From positions 16,767,501 through 16,831,500 of the forward strand of contig OX031072.1 in NCBI GenBank assembly GCA_943736015.1: a stretch of DNA of 64,000 bases, given 5' to 3'. This stretch comes from Tridacna crocea (Eukaryota > Mollusca > Bivalvia > Cardiida > Cardiidae). The translations under genes were made by a program, and so were the position numbers. A model generated the notes under the pieces. The model worked only from the letters and a program-made list of their open reading frames with translations. It was not told the DNA's origin and ran no database searches. Shown here one piece after another: positions 69-61,243 of the stretch (position 1 is the stretch's first letter; the number at the start of each line of letters is the position of its first letter).

Positions 69-3000
69 GTAAGTTAACCCTCTACCACACTACCTTGGGA
101 TTGAATAACCCTGAGAAAGAGGCCTTTTGAAAGCATTGTTGGAAAATGAGAAAATACTGGTAACCAAGTACAATGGAGATGGGTGATTTTCCGGAAACTG
201 TTGCTTTATAAAGATAATCATTGGGACCTGTAACAAAACTTGTTTAAAAAAATCCTTTTCAAATGCTTTCGGAGTCAAACAGTAAAAAGACAAAATGATT
301 ATCAGCTATTGTTAAACAATACTCACATGTCAATGTGAATAATCGCTTGAAAATTTGTTTTCAGTATTTTCAAAGACGGTTCACAAACAGGAAGAGACCA
401 AATTAAGGCTTTCGGAATTTCTGTATCTGTTCTTAGTTATTTACTTTTGAAAACAATAGTAGTAATGTCTTCTTTACCCCATTGTGAGATGGAGGTAAAC
501 CAGATGTCGCAATTGGTTTTTGATTGTCCCACGGGCGTCATTTTTGACAAAGTCAGAATGATAGAAAAGGAAAAAATGGAATGGACTTAAAACCAGGCTA
601 GGTTTGGGCAGAAGTGACGAGCTGTAAATATCAAAATGCTTCTAATATGACTGCATAGTTTCATGCTTTGCTAAACATAATTTTAGACTCACTCATTTTG
701 GAAGAAATTACAAACTTGAATTTTTTTGTCAAATGATAATAATTCTTTCTGTAGAAAACATTGTGGGAAAAGGAGTAAAATCTGGCTACCAGCATTTTCT
801 TCTATTCCCACAACATTTTCAAAAGGCTGTCTTTCAAAGCAGCAACTTAAGACAAAGAACAAAATACATCTTTAAAAATGAAATTATCTTAGTCACATTT
901 CAATGACAGTTCCTTTGTCGTGGGAACCCTGACATGGGGCGTCAGCACAGATTAAAGGATTTAGAGATAATCCTTACTGGATTTCCATAGCTTTTATGTT
1001 GACATTTTGCATTCTTGTCTTTTTAACCCTTTACCAAACAATCCATGGTTTTCGACCCTGCAATAAAAACTTTTTGAAAACAATGTGGGAAAAGGAAAAA
1101 ATGCTGGTAACCAGTATTTTCTCCTTTTCTCAATATGTGTTTCACCCTGCTAGAAACAAATTTCAAATTTTGATTTACATTATGTTATCGTCTGCAAATG
1201 CTTTCGATTTGGACATGTCTGAAATTCTGTTGTTTGGTAAAGAGTTGAAATGTTATTTATACTAACAGGACTAGAAATGACCTGTTGAAGAACATCTAAT
1301 TTGATTAAATAGATGCGATCTTTTTTCTCAGAATAATGAAATGGAGAAAATGCTGGTTAAGAGCAATGAACAGGTGTGATGTTTTCCCCACTATTGGAAA
1401 TGGAAAAAAAGCTGGTTACCAGCATGTTCTTCCTATCCCATAAGCTCTTTATCCTACCAAAGACAAATTTCAATTTTTGTGTCACATTATTTTGTCGTGT
1501 GCAACTACTTATTATTTTGACAGGTCGAAAATATTGTTATTTAAAGAACCAATGCCTATTTGGTAACTTTTTTCACTATTTTAACTCTACTTTTAGCTGT
1601 ACTGGCTGAAAGGCAGCAGAGCTTATGTCATAGTGTGGTTTCCTTTGTCAATCAGTCTGTTAGTCTTTTACATGTGTCTGCAATGGAAGTCTGCATTTGT
1701 GCTCAGATTTTTTATTAAACTTGGATGAATTGAAAGCATTTGCAGACAAAATGAATTTAATTGAAATTTCTGTTGGGAAGGGAAGAAAACTTTGTGGGAA
1801 AAGGAGAAAATGCTGGTTACCAAGATGTTTATACTATTTGGTTACAATGATTTCTACAATACTTTGATTTCTACTTTCTCCTCATGTTTCAGGGATGTAG
1901 CCTTGGAGATATTGCAGCAGGAGGATATTGGTTCGTTTATAGTTCGGGACAGTACCACCCATCCAGGGTGTTACGCCCTGTCTGTCAGGGTGCCCAAGTT
2001 TGAAAACCCAACAGGAATCTCTCATTACCTGATACTGAAAACTTCCAGAGGAGTCAAATTAAAGGTAATACTGCTTTCATCATCAAATCTTAACCAGAGA
2101 ACAACATTTAGTGTGGACCGAATTGAAAGCAATTTTGCAGACGACAAATGTCGCTTAAATGTCAATTTCTGTCTCTGGTAAGGTAGAAAACAAAGAGGGA
2201 AAAAAGGAGAAAAAGCTGGTTATCAGCATTTTCTCCTTTTCCCAAAATGTTTTGAACATGTGGTAATGTGCAAACCAAAAAATATTTGAGTTTTAATGAC
2301 CCTGAAGAAAACAGATTTTGAAAACATTGCAGAAAAAAGGAGATAATAGCAGGTCTCCAGCATTTTGTTTCTTTCACACAATGTTTTCTACCCAATTAAA
2401 TCATTTTCAAAGGACAGAATTCAAGGTTTGTCCAAATCAAAAGCATTTGCAGACGACAAACTAAAAGTGACTGAAAATTTGAAAATTGTTTTGTGAAGGA
2501 TAGAAAACATTGCGGGAAAAGCAGAAAATGCTGGTTACCAGCATTTTCTCCTTTCCCTACAATATTTTCAGAGGTTTCCTTTCTCAGGGTCGTCAAAAGT
2601 CAGGATTGTGTGGTAATTGATACACCCAATCACTTGATCCAAATTGTCATTTGCGAATTCTTTTCATTTGGATTATTCTAAAATGATGTTTTTCGGTAAA
2701 GAATAAAAAGAAACATCAGTAATGCCATCAGAAACTTCAAAACATTTTAGCTGGTTATCACAATTAACTTCTGAAAAGTACTTACCTGAAGATTACTGTA
2801 TTTGGAAATCAAGACTAGAATCAATCTACATTGCTGCCTGTGGTGATTTTGCTGAAGGACAGAAGGGCTTTTGTCTCGGTTTGGTTTCTTGCTGTTTGTT
2901 AGTCTTTTTTCTATTTGACATGTATGTTTTTGTTTCCCATTAGTAAAACTTACACTTTTAAGCACAGGAAGGACAAATGCCCACTTTAGGGACTGGAATC

Positions 3001-3917
3001 CATGAAACTTGTTTTTGAAAAATTTCAATTTCAATTCCCATATTCCCCTTTCATGCATACTCATTTGGCTGTCACCTGAGAAGAGGCAGTTTTTTCCCCT
3101 CTTTCTTTCTCTCTCTTTCATTGTATGTCATGATGATGGTAAGATTAGCAATTTTATTTTGAAGAAAACTTCGATGAATTAACTTGTTACTGTATAATCT
3201 TTAATTTTATTTGACCTTTAACCACACAATCCTGACTTTTAATGAAGCCCACCCCCTCACCCCCCACCCCCTCCCCCGTCCTACACCAAAAAAAAAAACC
3301 AAGTAGAAAACATTGTCGGAAAAGGAGAAAATGCTGTGTTACCAGCATTTTCTCCTTTTCCATTCAATGTTTTCTGTCCTTCCTAAAATAAATTTCTTAA
3401 TTTGACGTCACATCTATTTAGTCTGCAAATGCTTTTAGTTTGGAAATGTCTAAAATCTTGTCTTTTGGTAAAGAGTTTAACACCCAATGGAGAATGAGAA
3501 GGCCTTTGAAAACATTGTCTGAAATGGAAAAATTTCTAGTCACCAACCTCCACTATGTTTTTCCACTCTTGATAGACTGATCTGATCTCATCACATTTAA
3601 TTTCATTGTCTGCAGTAATTGAATGTAATTGGGACCAGTCTAAAATTATAGGAACCAGTCTAACATTTTGTCATCTGGTAAAGTGTTGACATCATTATGA
3701 ATTTATTTTCCAGGGTTTAGACAAGGAATGGACCAGTCTACACTCTCTAGTCACTCATCATTCAGTCATGCCAGAAATGTTGCCGTGTACGTTACGACTG
3801 CCACGTGATACAAACAATCCCACTTTTAAGGACAGTGATAAAGATGAAAAAGATGAAGATCCTGATTATCAGAGACTTGCGGACTTTCAATCTATGATGG
3901 ACGCACTCAAAAAATGA
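1..3917 (+). CDS. SH2-domain protein, C-terminal end (tensin-like SH2), 3 exons, 5' partial
   Basis: Three exons join in phase at 1..68, 1893..2064 and 3714..3917 and encode the last 147 residues of a protein that begins outside the window. The joined product is one SH2 domain, a phosphotyrosine-binding module of signalling adaptors. It has the aromatic start (SSWYQAGIPRD), the phosphate-binding strand FIVRDS with its arginine, the HYLI strand, and the end SVMPEMLPCTLRLP. RGVKLKG and the MP-LPC-L-LP ending most resemble tensin SH2 domains as I know them. Tensins normally continue into a PTB domain, but here an acidic tail (DKDEKDEDPDYQ) of about 35 residues leads to a stop, so this is not a standard tensin. 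The family name is inference; the SH2 call is firm. Introns are 1824 and 1649 bp, both GT-AG and full of THM copies. Confidence 0.85.
74..172 (+). repeat. THM form A, truncated
   Basis: Left arm (TTAACCCTCTACCACACT, CCCTGAGAAAGAGGCC) and the first hairpin half; the sequence diverges after CTGGTAACCA. It lies 5 bp inside the first intron of the SH2 gene. Confidence 0.7.
744..830 (-). repeat. THM form B, hairpin core only
   Basis: Imperfect stem GAAAACATTGTGGGAAAAGG around CTGGCTACCAG, with the outer arms lost. Confidence 0.65.
1023..1248 (+). repeat. THM form A, full length
   Basis: TTAACCCTTTACCAAACAAT at the left and TTGTTTGGTAAAGAGTTGA at the right, with the central stem around GCTGGTAACCAG. 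It is 226 bp long, close to the consensus. Confidence 0.85.
1395..1832. repeat. Two degraded THM copies
   Basis: 1395..1550 is a form A copy without its left arm. 1720..1832 is the left part of a form B copy (TTGAAAGCATTTGCAGACAA, then the hairpin start) and ends 60 bp before the SH2 exon acceptor. Confidence 0.65.
1893..2064 (+). CDS. SH2 gene, central SH2 exon
   Basis: This 172-bp exon lies between acceptor TTTCAG and donor GTAATA. It completes the split Arg codon and encodes the FIVRDS and SHYLI strands through GVKLK. A truncated THM ends about 60 bp before the acceptor. Confidence 0.9.
2110..2620. repeat. Three THM copies in a row
   Basis: 2110..2272 is form B, 2290..2396 is form A and 2410..2620 is form B, the last with an intact GCTGGTTACCAGC stem and a GTGTGGTAATTGA end. 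All lie in the second SH2-gene intron. Confidence 0.7.
3213..3690 (+). repeat. Two THM form A copies, one with a C-rich insert
   Basis: 3213..3480 contains an expanded C-rich and A-rich tract at 3249..3299 in its left arm. 3490..3690 is a decayed copy ending GTCATCTGGTAAAGTGTTGA, 23 bp before the last SH2 exon. Confidence 0.7.
3714..3917 (+). CDS. SH2 gene, last coding exon
   Basis: The acceptor is TTTTCCAG. The exon starts in phase 0 with GLDKEW, encodes the end of the SH2 domain (THHSVMPEMLPC) and an acidic tail, and stops with TGA at 3915..3917. A weak ATTAAA at 4500..4505 is the nearest polyadenylation-like signal seen. Confidence 0.88.
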   Translation, partial: GLDKEWTSLHSLVTHHSVMPEMLPCTLRLPRDTNNPTFKDSDKDEKDEDPDYQRLADFQSMMDALKK

Positions 3918-3991
3918 TTTTACGCAGTATGGTGTCTGAACATTGCTAGATCATTGTGTTAGCCCGCAATATTGTCTCTATGTTGTATTCA

Positions 3992-5301: not shown

Positions 5302-5302
5302 G

Positions 5303-7101: not shown

Positions 7102-7330
7102 TTAACCCTTTACCAGACAACCAAATTTTATCCTCATCCAAGTTGAAAGCATTTGCAGACGACAATTTCAATGTGACTCAAATGGTAAAGCTGTAGATGG
7201 ATGGAGTAGAAAACATTGTAGGAAAAGGAGAAAATGCTGGTTACCAGCATTTTCTCCTTTTCCCACAATTTTTTCATAACGCTTCTTTCCTTGGGGCATC
7301 AAAACTCAAAACTGTGTGGGAAAGGGTTAA
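7102..7330 (-). repeat. THM form B, full length with TTAA at both ends
   Basis: TTAACCCTTTACCAGACAAC at the left and GTGTGGGAAAGGGTTAA at the right; 229 bp with a near-perfect central stem. One of the best intact copies. Confidence 0.9.
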
Positions 7331-7383
7331 CTTTTTATGATATGAAAAAAATTAGCACTGGTCTAAGTCACTAGCTTTTGCAA

Positions 7384-7525
7384 TCTTTTTCAATTTTTGG
7401 GATCGTATTTAAAGGGTAGAAAAACTTTGTGGAAAAGGAGAAATGCTGTGTGTACCAGCATTTTCTCCTTTGTTCACAATGTTTTCAAAATCCCTTCTCC
7501 TGAAGGTTGTTAAAAACTCAGGATA
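7384..7525 (-). repeat. THM form B, partial
   Basis: Hairpin and right arm only; the loop is expanded (GCTGTGTGTACCAGC). Confidence 0.6.
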
Positions 7526-7599
7526 ACTTAATTAAGAGTGAATTCAGTAGATGGTGTGGCAATTTTCGCAGCCAATAACTTGTCAAACAACTCTGTATT

Positions 7600-8302: not shown

Positions 8303-8304
8303 AA

Positions 8305-9234: not shown

Positions 9235-9462
9235 TTAACCCTTTACCACACAATCCGGACTTTTAATTACCCTGAGAAGGAAGCCTTCTGTAAGCATTGG
9301 GGGAAAAGGAGAAAATGCTGGTGACCAGCATTTTCTCCTTATCCCACAATGTTTTCATTCCTTCCCAATAGAAATTTCACATTTTCAGTCACTTTTATTT
9401 TGTCATCTGCACATGCTTTCAATCGGGACCAGTCTAGAATTTTGTCATTCGGTAAAGAGTTA
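9235..9462 (+). repeat. THM form A, full length
   Basis: TTAACCCTTTACCACACAAT at the left and TTCGGTAAAGAGTTA at the right; 228 bp. Confidence 0.88.
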
Positions 9463-9709
9463 CAACAGTTATTAAAAGAAGTGGCTATTACGGATTGGTA
9501 AGTTTTTTATGCCTTTGGTACTTTGGATCTCAGAGATACATTAAGCCTCCCTTTGCTAGAGCATGGTTCATGTATTATATGATCTAATTGCACAAAAATA
9601 GCTTTGAATTCTCGGTATTGTGGTCTTACTGACAGTCTGGGACCTTTTATTTTTTTTACAATGTAGTTAGACCTGTACAATATAATTCTGTTGTTGTATG
9701 ACAAATGGG

Positions 9710-12664: not shown

Positions 12665-12892
12665 TTAATCCATTACCACACAATCCCTGCTTTTGACGCC
12701 CCTGAGAAAGAAGCCTTATAAAACATTGTGGGAAAAGGAGAAAATGCTGGTAACCAGCATTTTCTCCTTATCCCACAATGTTTTCTACCCTTCACAAAAC
12801 AAATTTCAAATTTTCAGTCACTTTTATTTTGTCTTCTGAAAATGCTTTCAATTTGGACCAGTCTAAAATATTGTGGTTTGGTAATGAGTTAA
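12665..12892 (+). repeat. THM form A, full length with TTAA at both ends
   Basis: 228 bp from TTAATCCATTACCACACAAT to GGTTTGGTAATGAGTTAA. Very close to the copies at 30646, 40042, 45894 and 47168, so it belongs to a recent subfamily. Confidence 0.92.
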
Positions 12893-30262: not shown

Positions 30263-33200
30263 CTGAAAGGATAAAAAATGTTGAGTTTCTTTTAAGTCTT
30301 TATCAAATGATGAAATGTCAGAATGTCCAATTTAAAAACAGGTGCAGATGACAATTTTATTGTGGTTCAAATGCAGTAAATATTCCTAGAAATGGTTGAA
30401 AATATTGTTGGAAAAGAAGAAAATGCTGGTAACCAGCATTTCCTCCTTTCCCACAGTGTTTTCAAAAGGCTTTCTTCTTCAGGGTCTTTAAAACTAGAGA
30501 TTGTGTGGTACAGAGTTCAGTATCCCCATAGACCTATCTGGAGACTGTGGTGTGGTCAGAGAGCATTGGCTTCTCACAATACAGGTTCTAAGCTTGAAGC
30601 CCATGATCAGCAGGATCAGCCTTCAGAACCATACACATCACAGTGTTAACCCATTACCACACAATCCCTACTTTTGACACCCCTGGAAAAGAAGCCTTTT
30701 GAAAACATTGTGGGAAAAGGAGTAAATGCTGGTAACCAGCATTTTCTCCTTTTCCCACAATGTTTTCTACCTTTCATAAAACTAATTTCAAATTTTCAGT
30801 CACTTTCATTTTGTCATCTGCAAATGCTTTCGGTTTGGAAAAGCCTAAAATATTGTTGTTTGGTAATGAGTTAAAGGGTGATTTAAGTTTCCAGGAAGAT
30901 ATCACCTACAACCGTTAAATATTTCAGCCCCATGGACAATATTATCTTGTAATGTGAGCTCTTTCCTTAGCCAGGAGACTCCTAAATTAACCAAACAACA
31001 ATATTATAGACTTGTCCAAATTGAAAGCTTTTGCAGACGACAAAATAAAAGTGACTGGAAATTTGAAATTTGTTTTGTGAAGGGTAGAAAACATTGTGGG
31101 AAAAGGAGAAAATGCTTGTTACCAGCATGTTCTCCTTTTCCCACAATGTTTTCTACAGGCTTCTTTCTCAAGGGCGTCAAAAGTAGGGATTGTGTGGTAA
31201 TGGATTAAAATTAGGTTTGTTCCACATAAGTCGAGTCTATAACAACCACAGACAAAAGACAATCACAAACACACATCCCATAATGTTATGCTCAAGCATT
31301 CTAGAGAGATGAATGGAGATTAAGCTTTTTTATTAGGATGACAGAAAGTAAAAGAAAACATTGTGGCGTAAGAAAACATGCTTGATCACAGTGTTATCTA
31401 TACTTGTTTCAAATGCGTCTTGCCTCAGAATGATAAAAAGCCTGGTTGTATTCACTAAGTAATATTTACATAAATATATATTACATATATTTTTAATATA
31501 TATATATATTTTTAATGTATTTGAGACCCATCACACAAAAAAGGACCATCTCGTAAGTATGTACATCAATTAGATGAAAACAGATCAACAATAGTGCAGG
31601 TCAGTTAAAGCTGATAATTCAAAAACAAGAGGACCATGATGGTACTATATCGCTCACCTGAGTACTAAGTTGTAAAATCAAACTTGTGACCCCTGGGCAG
31701 GGCCAGTTTTGACCCCTGAGGCATCCTAAGAAAAAAACTTGGTAGAAGTCCACTAGGAGATGCTACTTACAAAATATCGAAGCTCTACAGCTTCTAGTTA
31801 CAGAGAAGTAGAATTTTAAGTTTCCTTCTTTGTTCCTTTGTTTCGAACTTGTGACCCCTGGGGCAGGGCAAGTTTTGACCCCAGGGGCATCCTATAAAGA
31901 AACTTTGTAGAAGTCAACTAAGAGATGCTGCATCCCAAATATCAAAGCTCTACACCTTCTAGTTTCAGAGAAGAAGAGTTCTAAAGTTTTCCTTCTTTGT
32001 TCCTATGTTTCAAACTTGTCACCCACGGGGCAGGGCAAGTTTTGACCCCTGAGGCATCATATGAACAAACATTGTAGAAATCCACTAGGAGATCCTTCTT
32101 CCTACATATCAAAGCTCTACATCTTCTAACTTCAGAGAAGAAGAATCTTAAAGTTTTCCTTTTTCATTTCTATGTATTAACCTTCTGACCCCTGGGGCGG
32201 GGCCAGTTTTGACCCCAGGGACATCATAAATCTTGGTAGAAGTCCACTAGTAGATGCTACAAACCAAATTCCAAAGCTCTACACCTTCTAGTTTAAGAGA
32301 AGAAGAATATTAAAGTTTTCCTTCTTTGTTCCTATGTTTCAAACTTGTGACCCCCAGGGCAGGGCATGTTTTGACCCCAGGGGCATCATATGAACAATCT
32401 TAATAGAGGTCCACTAGGAGATGCTACATACCAAATATGAAAGCTCTACACCTTCTTGTTTCAGAGAAGAAGATTTTCAAAGATTTTGCTATTTTTTTCC
32501 TTTTGGTTGCCATGGCAACCAGAGTTATGGGTGGAATTCAATCTCTTGAACAACTTTGGTAGAGCTTCACCCAAGGAACATCCTTGCCAAGTTTCATCAA
32601 GATTTGCTCAGCGGTTTAGGAGGAGAAGATGTTTAAAGGAATTGTGGACGACAGACATTAGGCGATTACAAAAGCTCACCATGAGCACTTCGTGCTCAGG
32701 TGAGCTAATGATTGTATAACAAGGTACAATAACCACTTTTCATACAGAAAATATCATTAAAGTGAAAAGTGTCAACCCTTTTCGCAGTTCCCAGAAGGTC
32801 CCTTTTAGCATGATAGGTCACATTTGTATTCACTTATTGCATTGTTAGTTTATGCGCTATAAATTTAGAAGAAACACAATTTCTGACTGACTGAACCATT
32901 GTGTTTAGCAAATCAGAAATTGTTGGCTTAAAATTAGGACAATTCTACAGAGAGTAACCCATCACGCAAAAAGGGACCCTCTGGGAACTGCAAAAAATGT
33001 CAACCCCGGTCAGACTGCGCGAATTTCTAATGACATTTTCTGTATGAAAAGTGGTCACTGTACTTTGTTAAATAATAATTTTTGAACTATCAACTTACGC
33101 TGACCTGCAATATCTTTGATCTGTTTCCATCTAATTGATGTATTAAAGAATTCCCAGATGGCCCCTTTTTTGTGTGACGGGTCACAATTTGACAAAGAGT

Positions 33201-39200: not shown

Positions 39201-42200
39201 ATTACAATGCAACACTCTGGGCACTAATCAAGCAAACATTGTAAAAAAAGGGAAATTAATCGAGTATCATTGTAAAAAGGATAACATTGGAAAATTATAT
39301 CCTTCCAACAGTTTATACTTGACCTAGTCACTTACCTATGTTGAGTACAATGTAGCAAAAGAACTAGAGCTCAGAATGCAAGTGCCAATTTTCTACTGCC
39401 CATGCTTTTTCAGTGGAAATTCTACCACGAAGTTAGGACATAACTGTGTCAAGAATGTGTTGAATGTTACAAGCCCTTCTGACAAATGATTTCCCTTTTT
39501 TGACAGTAACAAACTTTCACAAATTTGAAGTATATAATTTTGGTAATAACAAGGATATGAGAAAATATTGCTATGATGACATCAACATGGTTATGGCAAC
39601 AGCTGGATGTTTTATTTAAAATCAGGCAGGATAAAACAGGAAAATGCTGATGACCAGCACTGTTTTTGCCTTTTGCTACACCATTTTCTATTCTTTCAAA
39701 GGTGTCAATTTGTAATTGATAATAGGCTCACACATTAGCGCAAGTACTGGTGTAGTTATCAGGAAACAGAATTGAGAGAGATAAGTAAAAATTGTATGAA
39801 CCTGCTTCTCCTTCCATGTAAATTAAAATACATTTAACCCATTACCACACAATCCCTACTTTTGACAACCGTGAGAAAGAAGCCTTTAGAAAACATTGCG
39901 GGAAAAGGAGAAAACCAGCATTTTCTCCTTTTCCCACAATGTTTTCTTTCCTTCCAAAAACAAACTTCAATTCTTTAGTCACTTTAACTTTGTCGTCTGC
40001 AAATACTTTCAATTTGGACTAGTCTAAGATTTTGTTGTTTGTTAACCCATTACCACACAATCCCTACTTTTGACGCCCCTGAGAAAGAAGCTTTTGGAAA
40101 ACATTGTGGGAAAAGGAGAAAATGCTGGTAACCACCATTTTCTCCTTTTCCCACAATGTTTTATACCCTTTACAAAACAAATTTCAAATTTTCAGTCACT
40201 TTTATTTTGTTGTCTGCAATTCCTTTCCATTTGGACAAGCCTAAAATTTTGTCATTTGGTAATGGGTTAAAGAGTTAAACTATTCTAATGCTTTAAATAT
40301 GGTCTGAAGTCTAAATGTTTTTTTATCTGGTAAAGAGTTAATACATAAAAACAAACACTCTCACCTTTAAGGGCAATGAATGGGCTGAGAACAAGATGAC
40401 AACTTTGTCTCTTTCTTCCTCTGGAAATTTCATAAGTTCTTCTCTGATATGTTGTGCGTGGGTCTGTAGAGTAAAAACATTTAGGCCTGCATTCACCAAT
40501 CATTCTTCAGAACGGTCTTTGTCTTATTCTCCAGCATTTTCTACATTTGTAAGAAACACAACTTCTGATGGGCTAAACCATTCGGTTTGGCCCATCAGAA
40601 GTTGTGTTACTTACAAATTTAGAAAACCTTGAAGAATAAGACTTAGAATATTCTCAAGAATGGTTGGTGAATACAGGCCTTAATTGATAAATTATCATTA
40701 TCAAACCCACCTTATTACACTTTAAGAGCATTAATCACAAGTCATCACATTGCATAAACTATTCTAACTGACCTCTTGTTTATTTCTTAGCATAAAAAAA
40801 AAAAAGATGTTCATCACTGAATGAGTAAAGCAATAGTATGTATGCAAAATATCCCTAAATAATAAAGATAATAAAAGAAAACATTTAAATGGTATTTCCA
40901 TAAAGAACTACATGTATGTAACCTCTCCATTAAATATGTTAAGGAAAAGAACATTATCTTTCTAAATAACATGGAAAACATTGTAGGAAAAGGAGCCCTT
41001 GATTGTTATAAGCAATTGCTTCTTTACTCACAATGTTTTTGATAAGTAATACTTGCATGAGGAAAGAACATCAACTAGCCTATTACCTTTACAAGTCCCG
41101 GTGCAGTGGGCCATCTATCAATAGAGCTCCATGTGATCTGACTGACTGTCCCTTTTTGGTGATAATGTTTGAAAATGGCATTCATACTACTTCCTGTGGT
41201 AGAACAGCTATAGTGTGGGTATTGTGTAAAGGCAATACCTCGTTCTACACCATCTCTGTTGAGAATCAAACATGGGGTAAACCAAAAGGACCAGAATGGC
41301 CCTTATGTTCACCTAAGATTATAGTCAATTTTTAACAGTAAGATTTTACTCTATATATTTCAGTGTGCTTATGTGAAACATGTGAAAACCCTGCTCCCAA
41401 CCATCTACTAACTCTTTACCAAACAACAAAATTTTGGACTGGTCCAAACTGACAGCATTTACAGATGACAAAATAAATATGACTGAAGCATTGAAAGTGG
41501 ATTTGGGAAGGGTGGTTTTTCTGTTTTTCCCACATTGTTTTCCAAAGGCCTTTTACTCAGGGTCGTTAAAAGTCGGGATTGTGTGGTAACAAGTTAATAC
41601 TTTTTCCCTTACTAATTTCCTAATTGTAACAATGTTTGAAAATGGTGCTCCTACTATTTCCTGTGGTAGAACAGCTGTATTGGCAAAACCAACTTAAAAG
41701 CAGCTTCCCTTTCGGGAACCCCGTATATGTGACTAAACTTTCAACACAACGTCCAAACTGGCAGCTTCTTTCAAGATTAAAATGAAGATTATAAGCCAAA
41801 CTGAATCAGTGACGTCAGTTCCCATTGATGTCAGCTTTCATTGAACTGGGCACTCAGAAAGAAAATTCCACTTCATCAGTGTATTCAATGTTTGAAAACA
41901 AAAAAATAAAATGTAAAATTAACTTAACACACTGCAATGGTAAAACTTTACAGTACAATAAATTTGTTGTACAGCCAGGTGGCAGGGGTTGTGGAATTTT
42001 GTTCATGACTGTGGTGAATAATGTAGTCAACTTCCCTTCGGCTCAGGGCAACATGATTCACTACAGCCAGGATCAAGTTTCCAAGTCCCCTGCCACCTGA
42101 CCGTACAAAATATAATATACATGCATTGAAGCCTCTGACATGCTTATATATTTCATGTATCATATGGGTAGTATTTTGTGTACTGACCTTTCCATTTCAT

Positions 42201-45200
42201 CTATAGCATCTTCTGTGAGTGGGTTTACATATCGAAAACCTATATAGAACTTGTGGGGAGCTAGGAAATGGGAAAAAGAAAATGTGAATATTGGTGAAAA
42301 CAATACACAAGACTTAACCCGTTACCACACAATCCCTACTTTTGACGCCCCTGAGAAAGAGGCCTTTTGAAAACACTGTGGGAAAGGGAGAAAATGCTGG
42401 TAACCAGCATTTTCTCCTTTTTCCACAGTGTTTTCTACCCTTCCCTGAACAAATTTCAATTTTTCAGTCACCTTTATTTTGTCGTCTGCAAATGCTTTCA
42501 ATTTGGACAAGTCTAAAATTTTCTTGTGTGGTAAAGGGTGAACCCGTTACCGCACAGCAAAATTTTAGACATATCCAAATTGAGAGCATTTGCAGATGAT
42601 AATTTCAAAGTGGCTCAAAAAGTGCGATTTGGCTTTGATAGGGTAGAAAACTTTGCAAGAAAAGGAGAAAATGCTGGTTAACAGCATTTTCTCCTTTTAC
42701 CACAATGTTTTCAAAAGGCTTTTTCCTCAGGGTGTTAAAAGTCATCATTGTTTGGTAAAGAATTAAAGCTAATTACCTTTAGCATGTTCCCTTTTTTTAA
42801 ATCTATCTAATACTGTTAACTCATTCCACAATCATTGCAGTAATCAAAATGACACAGCCATTGACTTTTTCTGTTCTTCAATCATAAACCATCTGTTGAA
42901 TCTCTATTTTATTAGAGAGAAGAGCTTCACTAAGTTTCATCTTTTTTCCAACATTGTTGGACTAGAAATTCCAAACCTTCATGTTTGTTACAAACAATAA
43001 CTATCATCTTAAGTCTGTATAAGACGATAAAAGTCAAATTGGAAGCATTTGTAGACAACAAATTAAATATCAATCTATAGACAGGGTTTGACTTTGATAG
43101 GATTAAAAAAATTGGAGGGGTAAAAAACTGCTGTTAGGCATCACTTTCTCCATTTCCACTGTATTTTCAAGGCTGTCTGTCTCAGAGTCTTTAAAACTCA
43201 TGACAGCTTTTTTTTTTCAGAAAGTAACATTTCCCATCAACAAACAAATACCTTCAAATGACTTTCCTGGTCAAGCTACAGACACATCTTGGTAATACTA
43301 TGAAGAGTAGAAATTGTTTGAAATGAGAACTTTTGTTATATTGTTTACATGTGCAAATATATAAAATCCTTATACATGTATTAACCCTTTACCACACAAT
43401 CCCAAACCTTGACATCCTTGAGGAACAATGCATCTGAAAACATTCCAGGAAAAAGAGGAAATCTGATTATCTATATTTTACATGGACATTTCAAAACTGT
43501 CAGCTAAATAATATGTCATGGGGTAATGGTATTTATTTTTTGGTAGGAAAAGAGAGCGAAAGCTACCTGTTTCAGGACTAATTTGGTCCAGAATTTTCAC
43601 CATCCCTTCACCCTGAATTTTTGTCCAACGCTTAATAGGAGATCCTCCCCCAATCTCATGGTACTGGTTTTGTATCTTGGGTGTTCTTCTTTTAGCAATA
43701 AGTGGTCCAAGCCGGCTGAAAATACATCATTAACTATATTCTCATAAGGTCGATTATGTCTAATACTTTCACCCTTTTCACAGGACCTCAAGTTTAAATG
43801 ACCCTGGGGAAGAAGTGCTTTTGAAAACACACAGGGAAAAGGAAAAAATGCTGGTAACCAGCATTTTCTCCATTTCCAACAATACTTCCTACCCTTTTAG
43901 AGTCAGGTTTTATCAGCTGAGCACCATTCAATGTGTTGTCTGAAACATCTTTTAATTTGCATCAGAAAATTTTGTTGTAAGTTACCGGTAGAATTAAATT
44001 TACATCATAAGTGAAACTGTTTAAGTTTGTTGAATGATTTTGAGTTCTTCGTTCACCATAATATTCATTTTATGGTGGTATAAAAAAGTGTTCTTATGCA
44101 TGTATAATAAGGCCTTTGTAAAAGGACTACATGGATAAAGACTTAATAACTCAATTCATTAGAAACATAATCTGCAAGATTATAACCAGCATTTTCTCCT
44201 TTTTCTAAATTGTTTCCTAGGCCTCCCAAAACAAATTTCACTTTCTAGGTCAACTTTATTTTATTGTCTACGATTGCTTTCAATACAGACAAATCTAAAA
44301 TTGTGTACTTTTATAAAGCATTAACCCTTTACCAGATGACGAAATCTTACCCTTGTCCAAACTGCAAGCATTTGCAGGCAATAATTTCAGTGTGGTTCAA
44401 ATGGTAAAATCTTGCTTTAATAGGGTAGAAAAAATTGTGGAAAAAGGAGAAAATGTTGGTTACCAGCATTTTCTCCTTTCCCACAATGTTTTCAAAAGGC
44501 CTCTTCCACAGGGTCATAAAAACCCTGAATTGTCTGGTGAAGGGTTAAGAAAAAACCATTAAGACATACTCACTCTTGTGCTGGAAGCTGTATCAAATCC
44601 CTGTCCTTGAACAAATTCAGCAAAAAGTCGTGAACTTCGTCTAGTTTCTCAGGCCCACCCATATTTAACATCAATATACCTGTCTTTGGCCTGTAAAACA
44701 AGCAGACAAGTGTTGTCTATGGCTTTGATAATTCAGCCATAAAGAAATTGTCAGTTCAAGCATGCATTTAATGTAACACATGTTTAAGGCCTTAAAAAAA
44801 TATCTGTGTTTGGGGTTTCCTTACTCTACCTAGAAAATGTTGCTGATACTAAACTGTTTATGCTACAATTAGAAAAAATTAAAACTGTTGGATGTGATTT
44901 CGGTCCATGGTCCATGTAAAAAATTTTGGAAAACAAAAAATCTCCACCAACCCTACCTACACTATCTTGGACGGAAACCATAAACACAGATATGTTTTGT
45001 TAGGCCTTATTAATAAAAACTACTGTACACAAATCTAGATTTGTCTCTGCAATTTCAGAAAAACTTTTTTCCCAAAACTTGATAAAAAATATCTTTTTGT
45101 AAGACAAAGGAATTTTAAGATAGCATTGTAGGAAGGCAATAGAATGTGTTTTTACCATTTCTTGAAAATAAACTTTTACATCCTTTCAAAGAGTACCAGT

Positions 45201-48200
45201 ATCTCACTATTTGAGCAAAAATCAAGTTTATCATCTACTAAAGCCTTATGAAGAATGAGAAAAAAAAAATCAGCATCACGTAAAACCCAAGTCAATAAAT
45301 GCATGTCTCTTTCTCTTAGCTACATAAACCCTTTATCAAACAATTCATGACCAAGAGGAAGTTGTTGTTGTTGTTGTATTAGGGTTTAATGCCACTTAAA
45401 CAGCTAAGGTCATATCATGGCGGTCGGTGATGCACATGTGTTTCCTGGCTTTCTCACACCAGTACTAACACAACTCTCTTTCCAAAGCCACCGACTACTT
45501 TTCTCACATGCTTCGGCAGAGGTGAGAGGCGAAAATACGCCGGAAAGAAAGTTCGCCTCAACCGGGTATCGAACTCACAACCATCAGGTCATGAGTCCGA
45601 CACACTCACCACTGAGCCACCCGGGCGGGCACCAAGAGGAAGAAGCATTCTGAAAACATTGTAGGAAAAGCAGAAAATGCTGGGAACCAGTCTTTTTTTC
45701 CATTTCCCACAATCATTTCTACTCTCTGAGTATTTCATATTTTGAGTCATGTTCATTTCATCGTTTGCCAATGCTTTGAATTTCGACAAGTCTAAAATTT
45801 TGTCGTTTGGTCAAGAGTTAATCTATAGAAACATCTATTTATAATCTAAAAACCATGAGAATTTCAGTTTGAATTTAGACAATTGGTCTTAGTTTAACCC
45901 ATTACCACACAATCCCTACTTTTGACGCCCCTGAGAAAGAAGCCTTTCGAAAACATTGTGGGAAAAGGAGAAAATGCTGGTAACCAGCATTTTCTCCTTT
46001 TCCAACGATGTTTTCTACCCTTCACAAAACAAATTTCAAATTTTCAGTCACTTTTATTTGTCGTCTGCAAATGCTTTCAATTTGGACCAGTCTAAAATAT
46101 TGTCGTTAGGTAATTGGTTAAAGATTTCCATGAAATGGCTTTATGAAAAGAGAGAGCAAGCAGTCAAATATAGTCTAAAAGACTAGTGATAAAGGCACTG
46201 GAGGATACAGTCAAGAGTGATACCTCTCTGTAGATGTAGAACTTGATCTGTGATTCATAACTGATCCAGCTATTGATACATGGTAATCTATAACACAAGA
46301 TCTCCCACCCTGAGTTAATTGCCTTGCCAATCCTGAAAGAAAAGTTGTTGAATTACAATATACAGTGCACAAGTTCTTTACCTTTGTAACCCACATTTAT
46401 ACAAAAAATTTGATCTGCCAATACTGCTTAGCTACTGTTTAGTCATGCACTTCTTTGTACCAACAATCCTATGCTTAAATAGCCTTAAGAAAAAAAGAAT
46501 TTGAATATACTGCTGCAAAATGAGAAAAAGATGGTAGCCAGAACTCGCTTACAACTCACAATTTTATTTTATCTACCCTTATGAAGGTATATCCCCTTAC
46601 AGCAGCTGAAATACATTTGTTATCTGCTGTTCAACCTGATAATAGCCATTTTTTTTTTATATATGGTAAAGAGCTGAGAATGAAGGTAGTAGAAAAATAA
46701 CAAAAGAATAGAGAGGTGTAGAGTGTTATTGGTTACAATTAAAATTGGAGAAACATCTCTTCAATGGTTAAGGAACCTTCCAACTGGACCACCACAACTG
46801 ATTAAACCGATGGTTATTTACATGAAAAAAAAAGAACTTGGTAGTATTAAGATGTCAGTAAACTTTGGCTTGAACGGATTGACTTGATATAGATTCAAAT
46901 TTTAAAAAGAAGACATAGGAATAAAATATTACACAGAAAATCTTCTACTCTCATTGATATATGTATGCATGGTAGCAAACATTCTTTGGTTATTAAAGAG
47001 GTTAAGATTTTCATCTCCAAATAGAATGGTTTGGAGTGTCAATCTTGTTATACCACTACAAAATAGTTCTACAAGCAATGTTTCTCAAATTGTTTTGTTC
47101 CACATCTTGTGGAACACAATTATTTAAGTCCAGTATACTCCCACAAATTCTCTGATTCCTTGTTTTGTTAACCCATTACCACACAATCCCTACTTTTGAC
47201 GCCCCTGAGAAAGAAGCCTTTTGAAAACACTGTGGGAAAAGGAGAAAATGCTGGTTACCAGCATTTTCTCCTTTTCCCACAGTGTTTTCTACCCTTCCCA
47301 GAACAATATTCAATTTTTCAGTCACCTTTATTTTGTCGTCTGCAAATGCTTTCAATTTGGACCAATCTAAAATTTTCTCGTGTGGTAAAGGGTTAAGTAG
47401 AATTTCAGCAAAAATAATTCAGGATGTTTTTCTCCATTTTGCAGGTAACTCTAGAGCATGAAACATAAGGATCATTTTTTGATGCCACAAATATGTTGCT
47501 TTATACAACATAATGAAGAAAAATAAGTGTGTTGTAAACTTGATACTGTTGTGTACGGTAATCTTGCATGTCCAGTAGTCTTGCGTACTTCGGTATTTTC
47601 CTGTTGTGAGACTATTTTCGACAATTCTGTCTGTTTCTGTAGTGTTTATTAGGTAATAGGAATTCGGAATAACAAAGCATATTTCCGAAGCATAATTCCG
47701 AAAGTAGCTTTAGCTACATTTTGTACCTGAGTGTGTCTATTACATCATCCTTACTAATTATTCTTAAAAACGTCCCATGACCCAATAAATGATGAGACTG
47801 GCCCTAACACTTTTTATCTGTAAATAAAACGAGGATTTCATGTCTCATCACAATGACAAATCAATTCTACACATATTTTACAAGTCTATTAGACATTAAG
47901 AAACACTATTAATATTATTTACTTTATTTCATACAAACCTTTTCAGATGACAAATTCAATACCTATTTACCACCATTCTGTCAAAGTTATGAATCGAAAG
48001 TCTGAACTGGGCATAACTACTTATTTTCTACAATTATTCCTAGTATTGGTCACAAATACTTAACAAATCCTTTGCAGTGATTTAATTAAATACCTGCGCG
48101 CAAGATCACAAGACATTTTTATGCATGACAAAATATTGCTGTGAGTGTTTACTTCTTGAATGTTTGTGTTTTTCAGGTATTATTTTTATCACTGTCTCAA

Positions 48201-51200: not shown

Positions 51201-54200
51201 AAATATTGTTACTGTGAGTAAAAGAAATGAATTTAATCGTCATGTATATATTCCACCATCCTTAACTCTGAGGTTTATACATAGCCCCATAAACATCAAT
51301 TAAGTCAATTACTAAAACGGGTGCTCAGTTTGGCACAAAAAGTTACAAAACATATTAATTTCATAACAGACAAAAATATTTTCTTATCCCAGGGCTACAG
51401 CAAGTATGCGTTAGGCTAAAACATTGGGGGTGTCGATATATAGGGGGTGTCGGTGTTAGGTGAATTTACTCTACTTTATGCCAACTTTAATATCATTGCG
51501 CTAAAGCCCGGGACCTTTCGGAAGTAGATTAATTTATCAATTTCATTGACAGGCGTCTTCTTCTGAAAAGGACTGTTAATACACTTGAAATTACGTTTTT
51601 CAGCCCGTCTGGCGTTTTTTGCGATAAAAGAGCATATAAAGATTGCTTTGTCTGTTTGTATGTGGTTAGGACAGAGAACGTAGTGATGATGTAGTCTACT
51701 CCAACGTGTTAAGGTATCTAGAAAGCAGTATAAACTGTAAAGCGTTTAGGTACATAAACAATATAAGCCAGGGTTCCCGCTGGGCTTCGCATTTGGCGCC
51801 ATTTGCGATAGATTTTTAAATTTGGCGCAAGAAATTGCTGATTGGCGAAAATGACTGGCGCCGATATTTCTCCTATTGGGGTGCCGTACATTGTGATATT
51901 GGTCCCTTTCACCGCATTGCATAGATGAAAGACCGCTAATTCATCGATAAGGTCAAGTAAGCAGGGATAAACTGCGGCATCGACGTAAAGCACGTTACTT
52001 TACAGTTCGGTAACAAATTTTCACTCGACTATCCGAATATACGTACGCTTCCGATAACACACTTCCGGCTAGTGTCAGTTAATTTGGGAAAAGGGTAAGA
52101 AAGTTAAAGACCAGAGTTCCATATAAATCGTGAATATTTCTCAATATCAAAATTAATCATAACCGCAGTAGAATCGATAGATTCTGTGTTAAATTAATAT
52201 TACCGCGGTTTCCAAAATGCCGGCCCCATCGGCACTGACTAAAACCCGAACGGCCATGTTATCGTCGTCCTCGCAGTGTTGTCGATGTCGTTTTTCCTGC
52301 ACTAATCGCCTACCTTTCGAAAAACTGTTTCAAAATGTAAAAAGTTCCCACATGAACATCTTTTTTAGATCTAGAAATTTCTCTAAATGAACAATTTCTA
52401 CTTTTGTAACATTTTTTCTCATGTTGACTTTGTTGTTTGATTTGAACTATTTAGACCTCTATCTGTTTCATAAAAGTCTTTCTTTAAAATTTTGTTACAA
52501 TAGATGAAATGGTTATCAATGACCTATTTCTGCTTTTGTCATAGTGGTTTTTCAAATTTCAATGACAAATCTACTGGTAGTGGTACTTAAACTTAATACA
52601 AAATGATTTATCATTGTTAACAAAACTAAGTTTTGGAATATATTCACACATTCAACATAGATATAAGTAATTAAATCAGATAAAAACAAATGTTTTCTTG
52701 TCTATATTATTGCTCCTGACACAACCATGCAGTGATAACTTATTGACCAATCCTTTGTGATTGTGTTTTTTCATGGATTAAATTCTCATTGACAGTTTGA
52801 ACAGACCTGCATGTAGATAGGACTGCATATCTGTGTCTTCTGATCTAGATCTGTTCCAACTGTCAATCATTTTACAAATACGTACCCAAACACACAATTG
52901 ATGATAAGCAAACAAAAAGTAAACTAAATTCTGTTTTCATTTATTATGAGAATGTCACTCATTATACAAAAATTGAATATTTTGTAAGTGTATATGGGCC
53001 AGAGGCCTAAATACTTGAATAAAGATACTGATTGATTGACTTTAAGATTGGCACCAACTGGCTCCAATTATTTCAATTTGGCGCAAACTTTTCTCATTTG
53101 GCGAAAGTGATGGCGCAAGAAAAAAAGCAGCCAGAGGGAACCCTGTAAGCATGTTTAAAATTTAAAAAAAAATGCATGTTTCCCTTTTGACAGCGACAAA
53201 ATAAATCGGCTAAAGCTTAATTGATAGTGTCCATGGTTGAGAGATAGAGCGTCTGCCACATAACCAAAGGGACTGGAGTTCAAGACACAGGAGCGGGGTT
53301 TTTTAAGTTTGGGATCTTTCATTGATCAACATATCCGGGTTAAGTACTGGTGTAGTTCCCAGGAAGCAGAATCAAGAGAGATTTGGATAATTTGTAGAAA
53401 TTTGTTTTTAAATCGCTGATAAATATATATGTTTAGTTGTTTTATGACCGAAATATGTTTAACATGCGCTTTAACCCATTACCACACACTACCTACTTCT
53501 GATGACCCTGATAAAGAAGACGTTAGAAAACATTGTGGGAAAAGGAGAAAATGATGGTAACAAGCAATTTTTCTCGTTCCCACATGAAGACTCTAAAGAG
53601 TTTAGGTACATACACAACAGAAATGAAGACTCTAAAGAGTAAAGGTACATACACAGCAGATATGACGATCCTAAAGATTAAAGGTACATACAGAACAGAA
53701 ATGAAGACTATAAAAGGTAAAGGGACATACAGAACAGAAATGAAGACTCTAAAGAGTAAAGGTACATAGACAGCAGATATGACGATCCTAAAGAGTAAAG
53801 GTACATACAGAACGGAAATGAAGACTCCAAAGAGTTAAGGTACATACACAGCAGATATGACAATTCTAAAGAGTGAAGGTACATACAGAACAGAAATGAA
53901 GACTCCAAAGAGTAAAGGTACATACACAGCAGTTATGACGATCCTAAAGAGTGAAGGTACATACAGAACAGAAATGAGGACTCCAAAGAGTAAAGGTACA
54001 TACACAGCAGATATGACGATCCTAAAGAGTGAAGGTACTTACAGAACAGAAATGAAGACTCCAAAGAGTAAAGGTACATACAGAACAGAAAAGAAGACTC
54101 TAAAGAGTGAAGGTACATACAGAACAGAAATGAAGACTCGAAAGAGTAAAGGTACATACACAGCAGATATGACGATCCTAAAGAGTGAAGGTACATACAG

Positions 54201-57200
54201 AACAGAAATGAAGACTCCAAAGAGTAAAGGTACATACAGAACAGAAAAGAAGACTCTAAAGAGTGAAGGTACATACAGAACAGAAATGAGACTCCAAAGA
54301 GTAAAGGTACATACAGAACAGAAAAGAAGACTCCAAAGAGCAAAGGTACATACAGAACAGAAAAGAAGACTCCAAAGAGTTAAGGTACAAACACAGCAGA
54401 TATGACGATCCTAAAGAGTGAAGGTACATGCAGAACAGAAATGAAGACTCCAAAGAGTAAAGGTACATACACAGCAGATATGACGATCCTAAAGAGTGAA
54501 GGTACATACAGAACGGAAATGAAGACTCCAAAGAGTAAAGGTACATACACAGCAGTTATGACGATCCTAAAGAGTGAAGGTACATACAGAACGGAAATGA
54601 AGACTCCAAAGAGTTAAGGTACATACACAGCAGATATGACGATCCTAAAGAGTGAAGGTACATACAGAACGGAAATGAAGACTCCAAAGAGTAAAGGTAC
54701 ATACACAGCAGATATGACGATCCTAAAGAGTGAAGGTACATACAGAACAGAAAAGAAGACTCCAAAGAGCGAAGGTACATACACAACAGAAATGAAGACT
54801 CCAAAGAGTAAAGGTACATACAGAACAGAAAAGAAGACTCCAAAGAGCGAAGGTACATACAGAACAGAAATGAAGACTCCAAAGAGTTAAGGTACATACA
54901 CAGCAGATATGACGATCCTAAAGAGTATAGGTACATACAGAACAGAATTGAAGAGTCTAAAGAGTAAAGGTACATACACAGCGTATATGACGATCCTAAA
55001 GAGTAAAAGTACATACAGAACAGAAATGAATAGTCTAAAGAGTAAAGGTACATACGCAACGGATATGACGATCCTAAAGAGTGAAGGTACATACAGAACA
55101 GAAATGAAGACTCCAAAGAGTAAAGGTACATACACAGCAGATATGACGATCCTAAAGAGAAAAGGTACATACAGAACCGAATTGAAGACTCTAAAGAGTA
55201 AGGGTACATACGCAACGGAAATGATGATCCTAAAGAGTAAAGGTACATACAGAAAAGAAATGAAGACTCTAAAGAGTTAAGGTACATACGCAACGGAAAT
55301 TACGATCCTAAAGAGTAAAGGTACATACAGAACAGAAAGGAAAGTCTAAAGAGTAAAGGTACATACGCAACGGATATGACGATCCTAAAGAGTAAAGGTA
55401 CATACAGAACAGAAAAGAAAACTCTAAAGAGTAAAGGTACATACACAGCAGATATGACGAACCTAAAGAGTAAAGGTACATACAGAAAAGAAATGAAGAC
55501 TCTAAAGAGTTAGGGTACATACGCAACGGAAATGACGATCCTAAAGAGTAAAGGTACATACAGAACAGAAAAGAAGACTCTAAAGAGAAAAGGTACATAC
55601 GCAACGGAAATGACGATCCTAAAGAGTAAAGGTACATACAGAACAGAAATGAAGACTCTAAAGAGTAAAGGTACATACACAGCAGATATGACGATCCTAA
55701 AGAGTAAAGGTACATACAAAACAGAAAGAAAGACTCTAAAGAGTTAAGGTACATACACAGCAGATATGACGATCCTAAAGAGTGAAGGTACATACAAAAT
55801 AGAAATGAAGACTCTAAAGAGTAAAGGTACATACTCTTCAGAGTCTTCTTTTCTGTTCTGTATGTACCTTTACTCTTTAGGATCGTCATATCCGTTGCGT
55901 ATGTACCTTAACTCTTTAGAGTCTTCATTTCTGTTCTGTATGTACCTTTACACTTTAGGATCGTCATATCTGTTGCGTATGTACCTTAACTCTTTAGAGT
56001 CTTCATTTCTGTTCTGTATGTACCTTTACTCTTTAGGATCGTCATATCCATTGGGTATGTACCTTTACTCTTTAGAGTCTTCAGTTCTGTTCTGTATGTA
56101 CCTTTACTCTTAAGGATCGTCATATCCGTTGCGTATGTACCTTTACTCTTTAGAGTCCTCTCAGCTGTTGTGTATGTACCTTAACTCTTTAGAGTCTTCA
56201 TTTCTGTTTTATATGTACCTTTACTCTTTAGGATCGTCATATCTGTTATGTATGTACCTTAACTCATTAGAGTCTTCATTTCTGTTTTTTATGTACCTTT
56301 ACTCTTTAAGATCTTCATATCTGTTGTGTATGTCCCTTAACTCTTTAGAGTCTTCATTTCTTTTCTATATGTACCTTTACTCTTTAGGATCGTCATATCT
56401 GTTGTGTATGTACCTAAACTCTTTAGAGTCTTCACTTCGGTTTTATATGTACCTAATCGCTTTAGAGTCTTCATTTCTGTTTTGATGTACCTATTCCCTT
56501 TAGAGTTGTCATCATTGTTGATAGGAACCTAATCTCATTACAGTCTTTATCATTGTTGTGTACGCACCGAATTTCTTTTAAGTCGTCAAGTCTGATGTGT
56601 ATGTACCTTAACTCTTTAGAGTCTTCATTTCTGTTTTGTATGTACCTTAACTCTTTAGAGTCCTCACAGCTGTTGTGTTTGTACCTTAACTCTTTAGAGT
56701 CTTCATTTCTGTTTTGTATGTACCTTAACTCTTTAGTTTGTGAAGAAGACTCTAAAGAGTTTAGGTACATACAAAACAGAAATTATTCTAAAGAGATTAG
56801 GTACATAGTTAACCATAATGCCGATTAGGCACATAGGCAACAGTGTTTTCTAGTCTTTCTGATTCAAATTTGAATAAATTTTTACACCTTTAATTTTTCG
56901 AAATTTTAAATTTGTATAAGGCTTGCCATTATTAATGTTTTTGTAATGTTTTCATGTCGTATTGATATGTCCCAATATAACTCTTTACCAAACAAGTCTG
57001 AGTTTTTTAGTTCTGATAACCAAGAGGAAGAAGCGTGAAAATCGCAAAATCATTGCGGGAAAAGAAGACAGTGCTGGTAACCAACAGTTTCTCCTTTTCC
57101 ATAACGTTTACTACACTTCAAAGACAATCCTGTCATTTGATATACATCTATCATAATTTGTCATCTGCAAATGCTTTCAGTATAGATAAATATAAAATGT

Positions 57201-59822: not shown

Positions 59823-60175
59823 TTAACTCACTACTGCACAACCCCTTCTTTTGACGACCCTGAGAAAGAAGCCTTCTGAAAACATTGTGGGAAAATGAGA
59901 AAATGCTGGTAACCAGCATTTTCTCCTTTTTTCCATAATGTTTTCTACCATTTTATTATATTTTATCATTACTAAAGTAAACAATTATAAACAATTGTTA
60001 TATATATGTATGATGTTTTGCATTGTATATTATGAAGAGAGTAGAAATAAAGTTAAAAAAATGTTTTCTACCCTTCACAAAACAAATTTCAAATTTTCAG
60101 TCATTTTTAGTTTGTCGTCTGCAAATGCTTACAATTTGGACAAGTCTAAAATTTTGTCGTTTGGTAATGGTTTAA
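59823..60175 (+). repeat. THM form A interrupted by a 111-bp retroposed insert
   Basis: TTAACTCACTACTGCACAAC to GTCGTTTGGTAATGGTTTAA; the right arm is split at ATGTTTTCTACC. Confidence 0.85.
59950..60060 (+). mobile_element. 111-bp retroposed sequence with poly(A) and 12-bp duplication
   Basis: Flanked by ATGTTTTCTACC on both sides (59938..59949, 60061..60072). It ends AGAAATAAAGTTAAAAAA, a polyadenylation signal plus short A tail. Looks like a cDNA tail inserted by LINE machinery; the source transcript is unknown. Confidence 0.75.
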
Positions 60176-60240
60176 GGGGGACTCGAACCCGGGGTCTGCA
60201 GGTTGTGATTCCCACACTTTACCACTGAACCACGTAGTGC
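60176..60240 (-). mobile_element. tRNA-like head remnant
   Basis: On the minus strand: TGGTTCAGTGGTAAAG (box A) and GGGTTCGAGTCCC (box B) with no proper cloverleaf; probably a SINE remnant. Confidence 0.4.
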
Positions 60241-60644
60241 CATGGAAACATTGACGAGTAACGAATGAATGTCTAGTCCATTTGAATGTTTACCAGGATT
60301 TCTTTCTTTTACCACACTGTTTTCGATAGTGTTATCATTCATAGCCGTTTAACTCTTTACCACACAATGACGACTTTTGACGACCTTGAGATAGAAGCCT
60401 ATTGAAAACACTGGGGAAAAAGCTTCTCGTAGACCTGGCAAAGATATTGTTTCAACACTTTTTTACAGTCAAGGATTTTACTGTCCCTTGCACATATTTC
60501 TGTTCGAAATTTTTATGTTGTTTAAAAATAAAAAAATCTGGACTCCATAGTGTCAAATATAGATCCACAGATCTTGTACTCAGGTGATATACATGTAATT
60601 TAGGCGATTCCAGTGATTGTTAGATCTGTATTTTGTAAAATCTG

Positions 60645-60975
60645 CGTCTGTATTCACCAACCACGTTGAACGTTCATTGTCTTATCATCCAGAATTTTCT
60701 AAACTTGAAAGTAACACAACTTCAGGGCCCGTATTCACCAACAATTCTTTAGAACATTCTTTGTTTTATTCTCCAGAGTTTACTGCATTTGTAAATAACA
60801 CAACTTCTGATTGGCTAAAACATTCGGTTTAAGAATATTCTCAAGAATGGTTAGTGAATACGGGCCCTGATTTACTACACCATTTGGTGTAGCGAATCAG
60901 GAAGTTTTGTAACTTTAAAATTTGAAAATCTTGGAGAATGAGACTAAAACTCCTAAGAGCGGTTGGAGAATATGA
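60645..60975. mobile_element. GTATTCACC-type MITE nested inside another
   Basis: The outer copy (CTGTATTCACCAACCAC to GCGGTTGGAGAATATG) is split by an inner copy at 60722..60870 (GGGCCCGTATTCACCAAC to GGTTAGTGAATACGGGCCC). Confidence 0.7.
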
Positions 60976-61006
60976 AACATGGTCTTTTTTTAACATGAGT
61001 GTCGTG

Positions 61007-61243
61007 TTAACCCATTACCACACAATCCCTACTTTTGACGCCCCTGAGAAAGAAGCCTTTAGAAAACATTGTGGGAAAAGGAGAAAATGCTGGTAACCAG
61101 CATTTTCTCATTTTCCCACAATGTTTTCTGCCTTTCATGAAACAAATTTCAAATTTTCAAATTTTGGGTCACTTTTATTTTGTCGTCTGCAAATGCTTTC
61201 GATTTGGACCAACCCAAAGTTTTGTCGTTTGGTAATGAGTTAA
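61007..61243 (+). repeat. THM form A, full length with TTAA at both ends
   Basis: 237 bp, TTAACCCATTACCACACAAT to GTCGTTTGGTAATGAGTTAA, with a small duplication in the right arm (CAAATTTTCAAATTTT). The second satellite starts right after it. Confidence 0.9.

Follow-up and report, generated by a model that had tools for sequence, protein, structure and literature searches.

The stretch of DNA analysed here (the window) comprises 64,000 bp of the genome of the bivalve Tridacna crocea and lies within contig 17 of an assembly of 1,048,827,098 bp in 31 contigs. It is densely occupied by one family of short, TTAA-flanked elements that carry a central palindrome, with features of miniature inverted-repeat transposable elements (MITEs). 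Using a profile search (nhmmer, overlaps resolved, E ≤ 1e-3) with a model built first from five copies and then from the 40 copies that were of near full length in the first pass, we identified 109 non-overlapping copies or fragments, 64 on the forward and 45 on the reverse strand, which together cover 18,031 of the 64,000 bp (28%). A further refined model returned 107 copies or fragments (29.0% of the window). As a control, the reversed, uncomplemented window gave no match to the family profile.

An earlier reading made from the letters alone (the sequence-only reading) had described a dense family of some 90-100 TTAA-flanked hairpin MITEs between positions 1023 and 61243. The density of the family is confirmed, as is its presence in that span, with further copies lying outside it, from position 75 onwards. 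The six copies which that reading had called young (at 12665, 30646, 40042, 45894, 47168 and 61007) were found at the positions given and are 228-237 bp long. As for the ends it had quoted, TTAACCCTTTACC is the majority left end across the family, whereas the ends of the six young copies are slightly different: five begin with TTAACCCATTACC and one with TTAATCCATTACC, and on the right three of the six end in GGTAATGAGTTAA, with GGTAAAGGGTTAA found in the copy at 47168 alone.

Structure, insertion and abundance of the family

The majority element is 229 bp long. It consists of the left end TTAACCCTTTACC, an arm, a 67-bp palindrome at element positions 56-122 in which two 33-base halves flank a single base, a longer and unlike arm, and the right end GGTAAAGAGTTAA; this matches the earlier description of two different arms around a near-perfect palindrome. 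The inverted ends of the majority sequence are 13 bp long and alike at 12 of 13 positions. Ends of the family read CCC[T/A]TTACC, with CTC in the majority right end. The element is short, has terminal inverted repeats and is present in high copy number, as expected of a MITE, and its length and palindrome, rather than a frame search, indicate that it is non-coding. The possibility that the stem was derived from the element ends was considered and rejected, as the similarity between CCTTTACCACACAAT and CCTTTTCCCACAAT does not go beyond that of shuffled sequences (best p 0.08). At one locus (L025), four places carry MITE arms of equal left-arm score around an 18-bp centre that is not a palindrome; these are perhaps units of a longer repeat.

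Insertion was analysed in 159 near-full copies from the window and from twenty 10-kb stretches taken at chosen round coordinates on 17 contigs. TTAA is present to the left of 105 of these copies, to the right of 98 and on either side of 74, and in the highest-scoring quarter (n=40) the corresponding figures are 93%, 82% and 78%. One copy (L004:1501-1730) sits within another repeat. When its flanks are joined, they align with five places that are uninterrupted (91%, 86%, 83%, 79% and 76% identity) and that have one target site, TTAA in four cases and TTGA in the fifth, where the filled copy has two. With a single empty-site relative (77%) of the window copy at 9235-9463, empty sites are established for at least two insertions. 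In addition, ten near-full pairs abut, and in nine of them the overlap is exactly 4 bp. Because of these empty sites and abutting copies, we conclude that the family inserts into TTAA with duplication of the target, including the TTAA of older copies. The predicted excess of TTAA at insertion sites is thereby borne out for this sample, rather than genome-wide.

Across the twenty stretches, 197 copies or fragments occupy 35,053 of 200,000 bp (17.5%; 0 to 26 per stretch), which extrapolates to ~1.03 million copies and fragments and 184 Mb, with a standard error of ~15% calculated by hand from the spread of the twenty values. The refined model gives 199 and 18.6%. Exact matches to TTAACCCTTTACC number 66,634 + 66,849 genome-wide, against 28 + 20 for the reversed pattern. 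A central 35-mer with three pairs left two-state occurs at 201,974 genome places. At that density, the window and the stretches, 264 kb together, should contain 51 such places; 44 were observed. Roughly, then, the family fills a sixth of the genome with about 1 million copies and fragments. A single 230-bp family on a sixth or more of a genome has a copy number at the scale of human Alu, which reaches a comparable scale in a genome three times larger. We found no description of the family in the open-licence literature, searched also via its end and stem sequences; in the sections available to us, a survey of bivalve transposable elements leaves MITEs unclassified (PMC10294476) and the main text of a scallop repeat paper gives neither piggyBac nor TTAA (PMC5874043). 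MITEs, piggyBac MITEs and hairpin MITEs are already known; what sets this family apart is its share of the genome, together with the two-sided evolution measured below.

Divergence and symmetry of the central palindrome

Divergence was measured in 158 near-full copies, with CpG, TpG and CpA positions excluded. It was 0.204 in the left arm, 0.079 in the stem and 0.192 in the right arm, with 0.149 and 0.158 at the two ends, and the stem lay below the arms in 150 of the 158 copies and above them in seven. There is a step at the palindrome edges: at the left edge five-base means drop from 0.157 to 0.072, and at the right edge they climb from 0.063 via 0.136 to 0.250. Such a pattern might reflect ordinary decay, if the apparent conservation of the stem came from base composition, alignment or detection bias and the rest from subfamilies. 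Indeed, 50 of the 128 arm sites have a clustered variant, and subfamily variation of this kind raises arm divergence and is not fully separable from post-insertion decay in this sample. However, the difference between stem and arms is present for each of the four bases separately, and in comparisons between nearest neighbours, picked on half of the arm sites, the stem/arm ratio stays at 0.45-0.54 over five age classes. It also persists when copies are detected by their arms only (stem divergence from 0.039 in the best quarter to 0.127 in the worst, for 150 of 185 arm pairs measured) and in a young subset of 51 CCCAT-type copies (stem 0.049, arms 0.107 and 0.121), leaving decay a very improbable explanation. 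The palindrome accumulates divergence at about half the rate seen in the arms, in agreement with the earlier impression that the hairpin is the better conserved part.

To this slower rate is added a peculiarity in the kind of change. In a sample of 256 stems (208 unbiased, and 48 from loci picked for other reasons), we counted 634 left-only and 669 right-only changes, 156 symmetric complementary changes and 93 other double changes. Five symmetric variants are prominent: 63/115 T>C, 69/109 G>C, 76/102 A>T, 81/97 A>T and 86/92 G>C. A lineage tree of the 158 copies was made from arm sequence only, and significance was assessed by 300 shuffles (minimum p=0.0033). All five variants follow this tree, with one to four changes per 5-14 carriers (p=0.0033 each). 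One-sided variants with at least four carriers reached p≤0.01 in 2 of 53 cases and p≤0.05 in 5 of 53. When clustering was assessed by distance, it was found for four of the five symmetric variants, one of 53 one-sided stem variants and 61 of 308 arm variants. A symmetric variant with four occurrences is likelier to mark a lineage than a one-sided one, and the fairer test is the comparison of one-sided stem variants with arm variants, which gave p=0.0006.

The genome-wide matches to the central 35-mer tell a similar story. Among the 100 matches listed, all near the start of contig C1, there are three symmetric versions only and none that is asymmetric at the pairs, with T81/A97 present in 13 of the 100 (counted by eye). 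The 44 places in the window and stretches divide into 37 + 4 + 2 symmetric and one asymmetric. Genome-wide, 1,439 places are asymmetric at 81/97, and a one-sided change of the same kind at 79 occurs at 597. Intermediates at 81/97 amount to at most a small lineage, compared with symmetric derived copies that number, by a rough estimate, ~26,000 (at 13% of the 201,974 places). Spreading lineages remain palindromic, and resident copies decay mostly through changes to a single half. Since lineages stay palindromic while symmetry-keeping changes are tolerated, selection appears to favour the palindrome as such and not the particular bases that make it up.

Of the five symmetric lineage changes, four are flips of A-T to T-A or of G-C to C-G, for which a G-U intermediate is not possible, and this argues for DNA rather than RNA and for an origin in one step. 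The stem might nevertheless be kept as an RNA hairpin, whether as a small-RNA or microRNA-like precursor or as a silencing decoy, and when folded as RNA the palindrome is very stable (-53.2 kcal/mol, z -14.9). Given the four changes that cannot pass via G-U, and with no match in the window to Rfam at gathering thresholds, we regard a role as RNA as quite improbable.

Some symmetric changes seem to have arisen by copying from one half of the hairpin to the other (arm-to-arm copying). The symmetric double change A79>T + T99>A was found at 7 places on five contigs, against 3 + 0 for non-partner doubles of the same kind over two combinations (p ~0.02, with only ten events). These seven copies are scattered over the family: their arm distances are 0.13-0.44 (two copies being cut at one end by the chosen coordinates), and each is nearer to some sample copy than to the other six, a comparison tilted towards the sample by its 158 candidates against six. 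The seven resemble one another slightly more than do the members of age-matched random sets, at 0.266 versus 0.290, with 1% of 300 sets as low, and need not all be independent. Outside the five lineage pairs, 71 partner doubles were observed in the 256 stems where 33.3 were expected by columns. Same-type non-partner doubles stand at 1.45 times their expectation, which gives a corrected partner expectation of ~48 and an excess of ~1.5-fold (p=0.001). The excess persists when carriers of T81 or C86 are left out (2.05 versus 1.46), and there is none in the 90 least diverged stems (1 observed, 1.5 expected). It seems that arm-to-arm copying exists at a low level, estimated at ~1-2% of mutations, and that alone it does not explain the slower change of the stem.

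The same recurrence, scatter and excess could be taken to mean that mechanism is all there is: that the halves are homogenised, as the element replicates or transposes, by gene conversion or by copying templated by the hairpin, so that lineages look symmetric by default. In yeast, mutations that extend the arm identity of imperfect inverted repeats are attributed to template switching (PMC3820800). By our own reasoning, however, unbiased copying ought not to halve a substitution rate, yet the rate in the stem is halved, and the one-sided changes on either side far outnumber the symmetric ones. It is thus unlikely that mechanism is the whole explanation. In any case, some 200,000 near-perfect 35-bp palindromes in one genome constitute an archive of inverted-repeat mutation, in which arm-to-arm copying is directly countable.

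Superfamily and a proposed explanation

TTAA target-site duplication and a left end in CCC are both characteristic of piggyBac elements, for which published ends include CCCTT and CCCAT motifs (PMC10813416). The family fits a non-autonomous piggyBac-type MITE, a placement read from its target site and ends and one that supports the sequence-only reading. The other superfamily in which duplication of TTAA is known, Kolobok, has the same target site and has given rise to long-lived, abundant MITEs in Xenopus, but Kolobok ends are purine (AG or AGGRR, PMC6004289) where those found here are CCC or CTC; membership of Kolobok, for whose transposase no search was run, has in our judgement only the slightest chance of being correct.

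A search for piggyBac transposases with PF13843 gave at least 118 matches, several of them in open frames of up to 668 amino acids. In 17 loci that were read, both inverted ends could be placed in 7, one end in 3 and none in 7. The ten loci with a placed end form five piggyBac families with TTAACCC ends: TTAACCCTTTATATAC; TTAACCCTTTCAG[T/C]GC; TTAACCCT[A/T]GTCATGC; TTAACCCTATCCTCCAC; and TTAACCCATTTATGCCT. One candidate partner, a 492-amino-acid piggyBac-like frame beside MITEs (L039), was rejected, as it belongs to a larger unit, 4.1 kb or more in length, that itself contains MITEs. After rounding, identity between copies of that unit is 100% across five contigs, with 98% for a sixth; C10, C9, C5 and C3 are among the contigs that carry copies, and the ends of the unit lie beyond the stretch read. 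Clusters of mostly broken piggyBac-like transposase fragments were also seen at C13:4.48-4.61 Mb and C8:56.71-56.76 Mb, and are possibly graveyards or local duplications.

We think it probable, with some reserve, that this is one piggyBac-type MITE family moved in trans, and that its palindrome is a cis-acting part kept symmetric by selection in source copies, with rare arm-to-arm copying. A piggyBac-type transposase cutting at TTAA would move the family, and amplification over a long period would have brought it to about a million copies and fragments. The palindrome of 67 bp would be a part that source copies must keep symmetric; one-sided stem changes would rarely found lineages, whereas copies with a matching change in both halves would do so. 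Resident copies would then mostly decay one-sidedly, and rare template switching at the hairpin would yield some symmetric variants. The palindrome would most likely act as DNA, in the form of a hairpin, a cruciform or a two-fold symmetric protein site, and might favour mobilisation or replication of the element. More tentatively, the palindrome could be a selected mobility-enhancing DNA structure, with only matched-half copies being efficient sources, one-step arm-to-arm copying making new versions, and this device letting the family reach ~1 million copies in a 1-Gb genome, a proposal we consider possible but less likely to hold than to fail. If the hairpin is indeed selected, this would bear on why many MITEs are near-palindromic.

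Several observations weigh against this explanation. Conservation of the terminal repeats does not clearly exceed that of the arms and falls far short of that of the stem, an odd result if the stem owes its conservation to selection for mobilisation. The tree test includes only five symmetric lineage changes, several of them nested in one subfamily. Places asymmetric at 81/97 are about twice as many as the one-sided background at 79, and of 100 such asymmetric places listed, 12 are on the derived C86/G92 background, so that a small intermediate lineage may exist. Variants present in at most four copies are no rarer in the stem; this rare-variant count, tried as a way of separating old from new changes, has a cut-off ill-suited to the more variable arms and was replaced by the neighbour, clustering and tree tests. 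Finally, the search for a piggyBac transposase with matching ends, suggested earlier, did yield open frames with TTAACCC ends, but the ends CCC[T/A]TTACC are absent from the 10 loci with placed ends among the 17 read of at least 118 matches. The family may depend on cross-mobilisation, its partner may have been lost, or the partner may be an element among the remaining matches. As for the outcomes that the sequence-only reading had named as contrary to it (no excess of TTAA, an autonomous partner of another superfamily, a stem as diverged as the arms), none was found in what was tested, and its guess that selection acts on the structure now has a stronger test in the two-sidedness of lineage-level stem changes.

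Window features and comparison with known systems

Selected copies of the family in the window are listed in Table 1.

Table 1. Positions of the MITE family and of selected copies within the window
Feature	Position	Strand	Remarks
Family span	75..61243	both orientations, interspersed	107-109 copies or fragments; profile search
Copy abutting a second copy	7102..7330	-	second copy 7327-7542 (-); 4-bp overlap
Near-full copy	12665..12892	+	
Near-full copy	30646..30874	+	CCCATTACC end type
Copy abutting the next one	39834..40045	+	common TTAA with copy 40042
Near-full copy	40042..40270	+	TTAA in common with preceding copy (39834..40045)
Top-scoring copy under second model	42314..42542	+	stem with symmetric change at pair 63/115
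Copy oriented oppositely to 42314..42542	42539..42766	-	overlap is exactly the 4-bp target site
Near-full copy	45894..46121	+	
Central palindrome of copy 45894	45948..46017		model matches opposite strand
Near-full copy	47168..47396	+	matching change at pair 63/115 in both hairpin halves
Near-full copy	61007..61243	+	237 bp owing to 8-bp insertion in right arm

The segment at 47399-53469 is free of copies over 6.1 kb, compared with 107 copies in 64 kb; an inverted repeat lies within it (48326-48502 / 48894-49073, 82%), none of its frames reaches 100 amino acids, and it may be a young insertion or a protected region. A 39-bp tandem array occupies 53584-56736, with unit orientation flipping beyond ~55.83 kb, and a truncated MITE copy stops exactly where this array starts (53584). 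A second, satellite-like array of 22-bp units at 61245-63995 directly follows a full MITE copy. Because the frame at 1792-2181 gives a weak but significant match to SH2 domains, the part of the window around it probably lies in a host gene.

Among known systems, the piggyBac-derived MITEs mPok1 and mPok2 of Daphnia are likewise non-autonomous and of a TTAA-targeting superfamily; the family described here differs in having a central 67-bp palindrome with two-sided lineage changes and a far larger share of the genome. MADE1 and zebrafish Angel are near-palindromic hairpin MITEs in which the palindrome spans most of the element, and a fold-back amplification model has reportedly been proposed for Angel. 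Here, in contrast, the palindrome is a separate part set between two arms that differ from each other, and symmetric evolution was measured. The T2-MITEs of Xenopus (PMC6004289) also form a predominant, long-lived MITE family with a TTAA target site, but have purine AGGRR ends and belong to another superfamily, Kolobok. Finally, template switching at yeast quasi-palindromes likewise produces mutations that make the arms of inverted repeats more alike; there it was seen in reporter assays (PMC3820800), whereas here it is inferred from the repeat copies of one genome.

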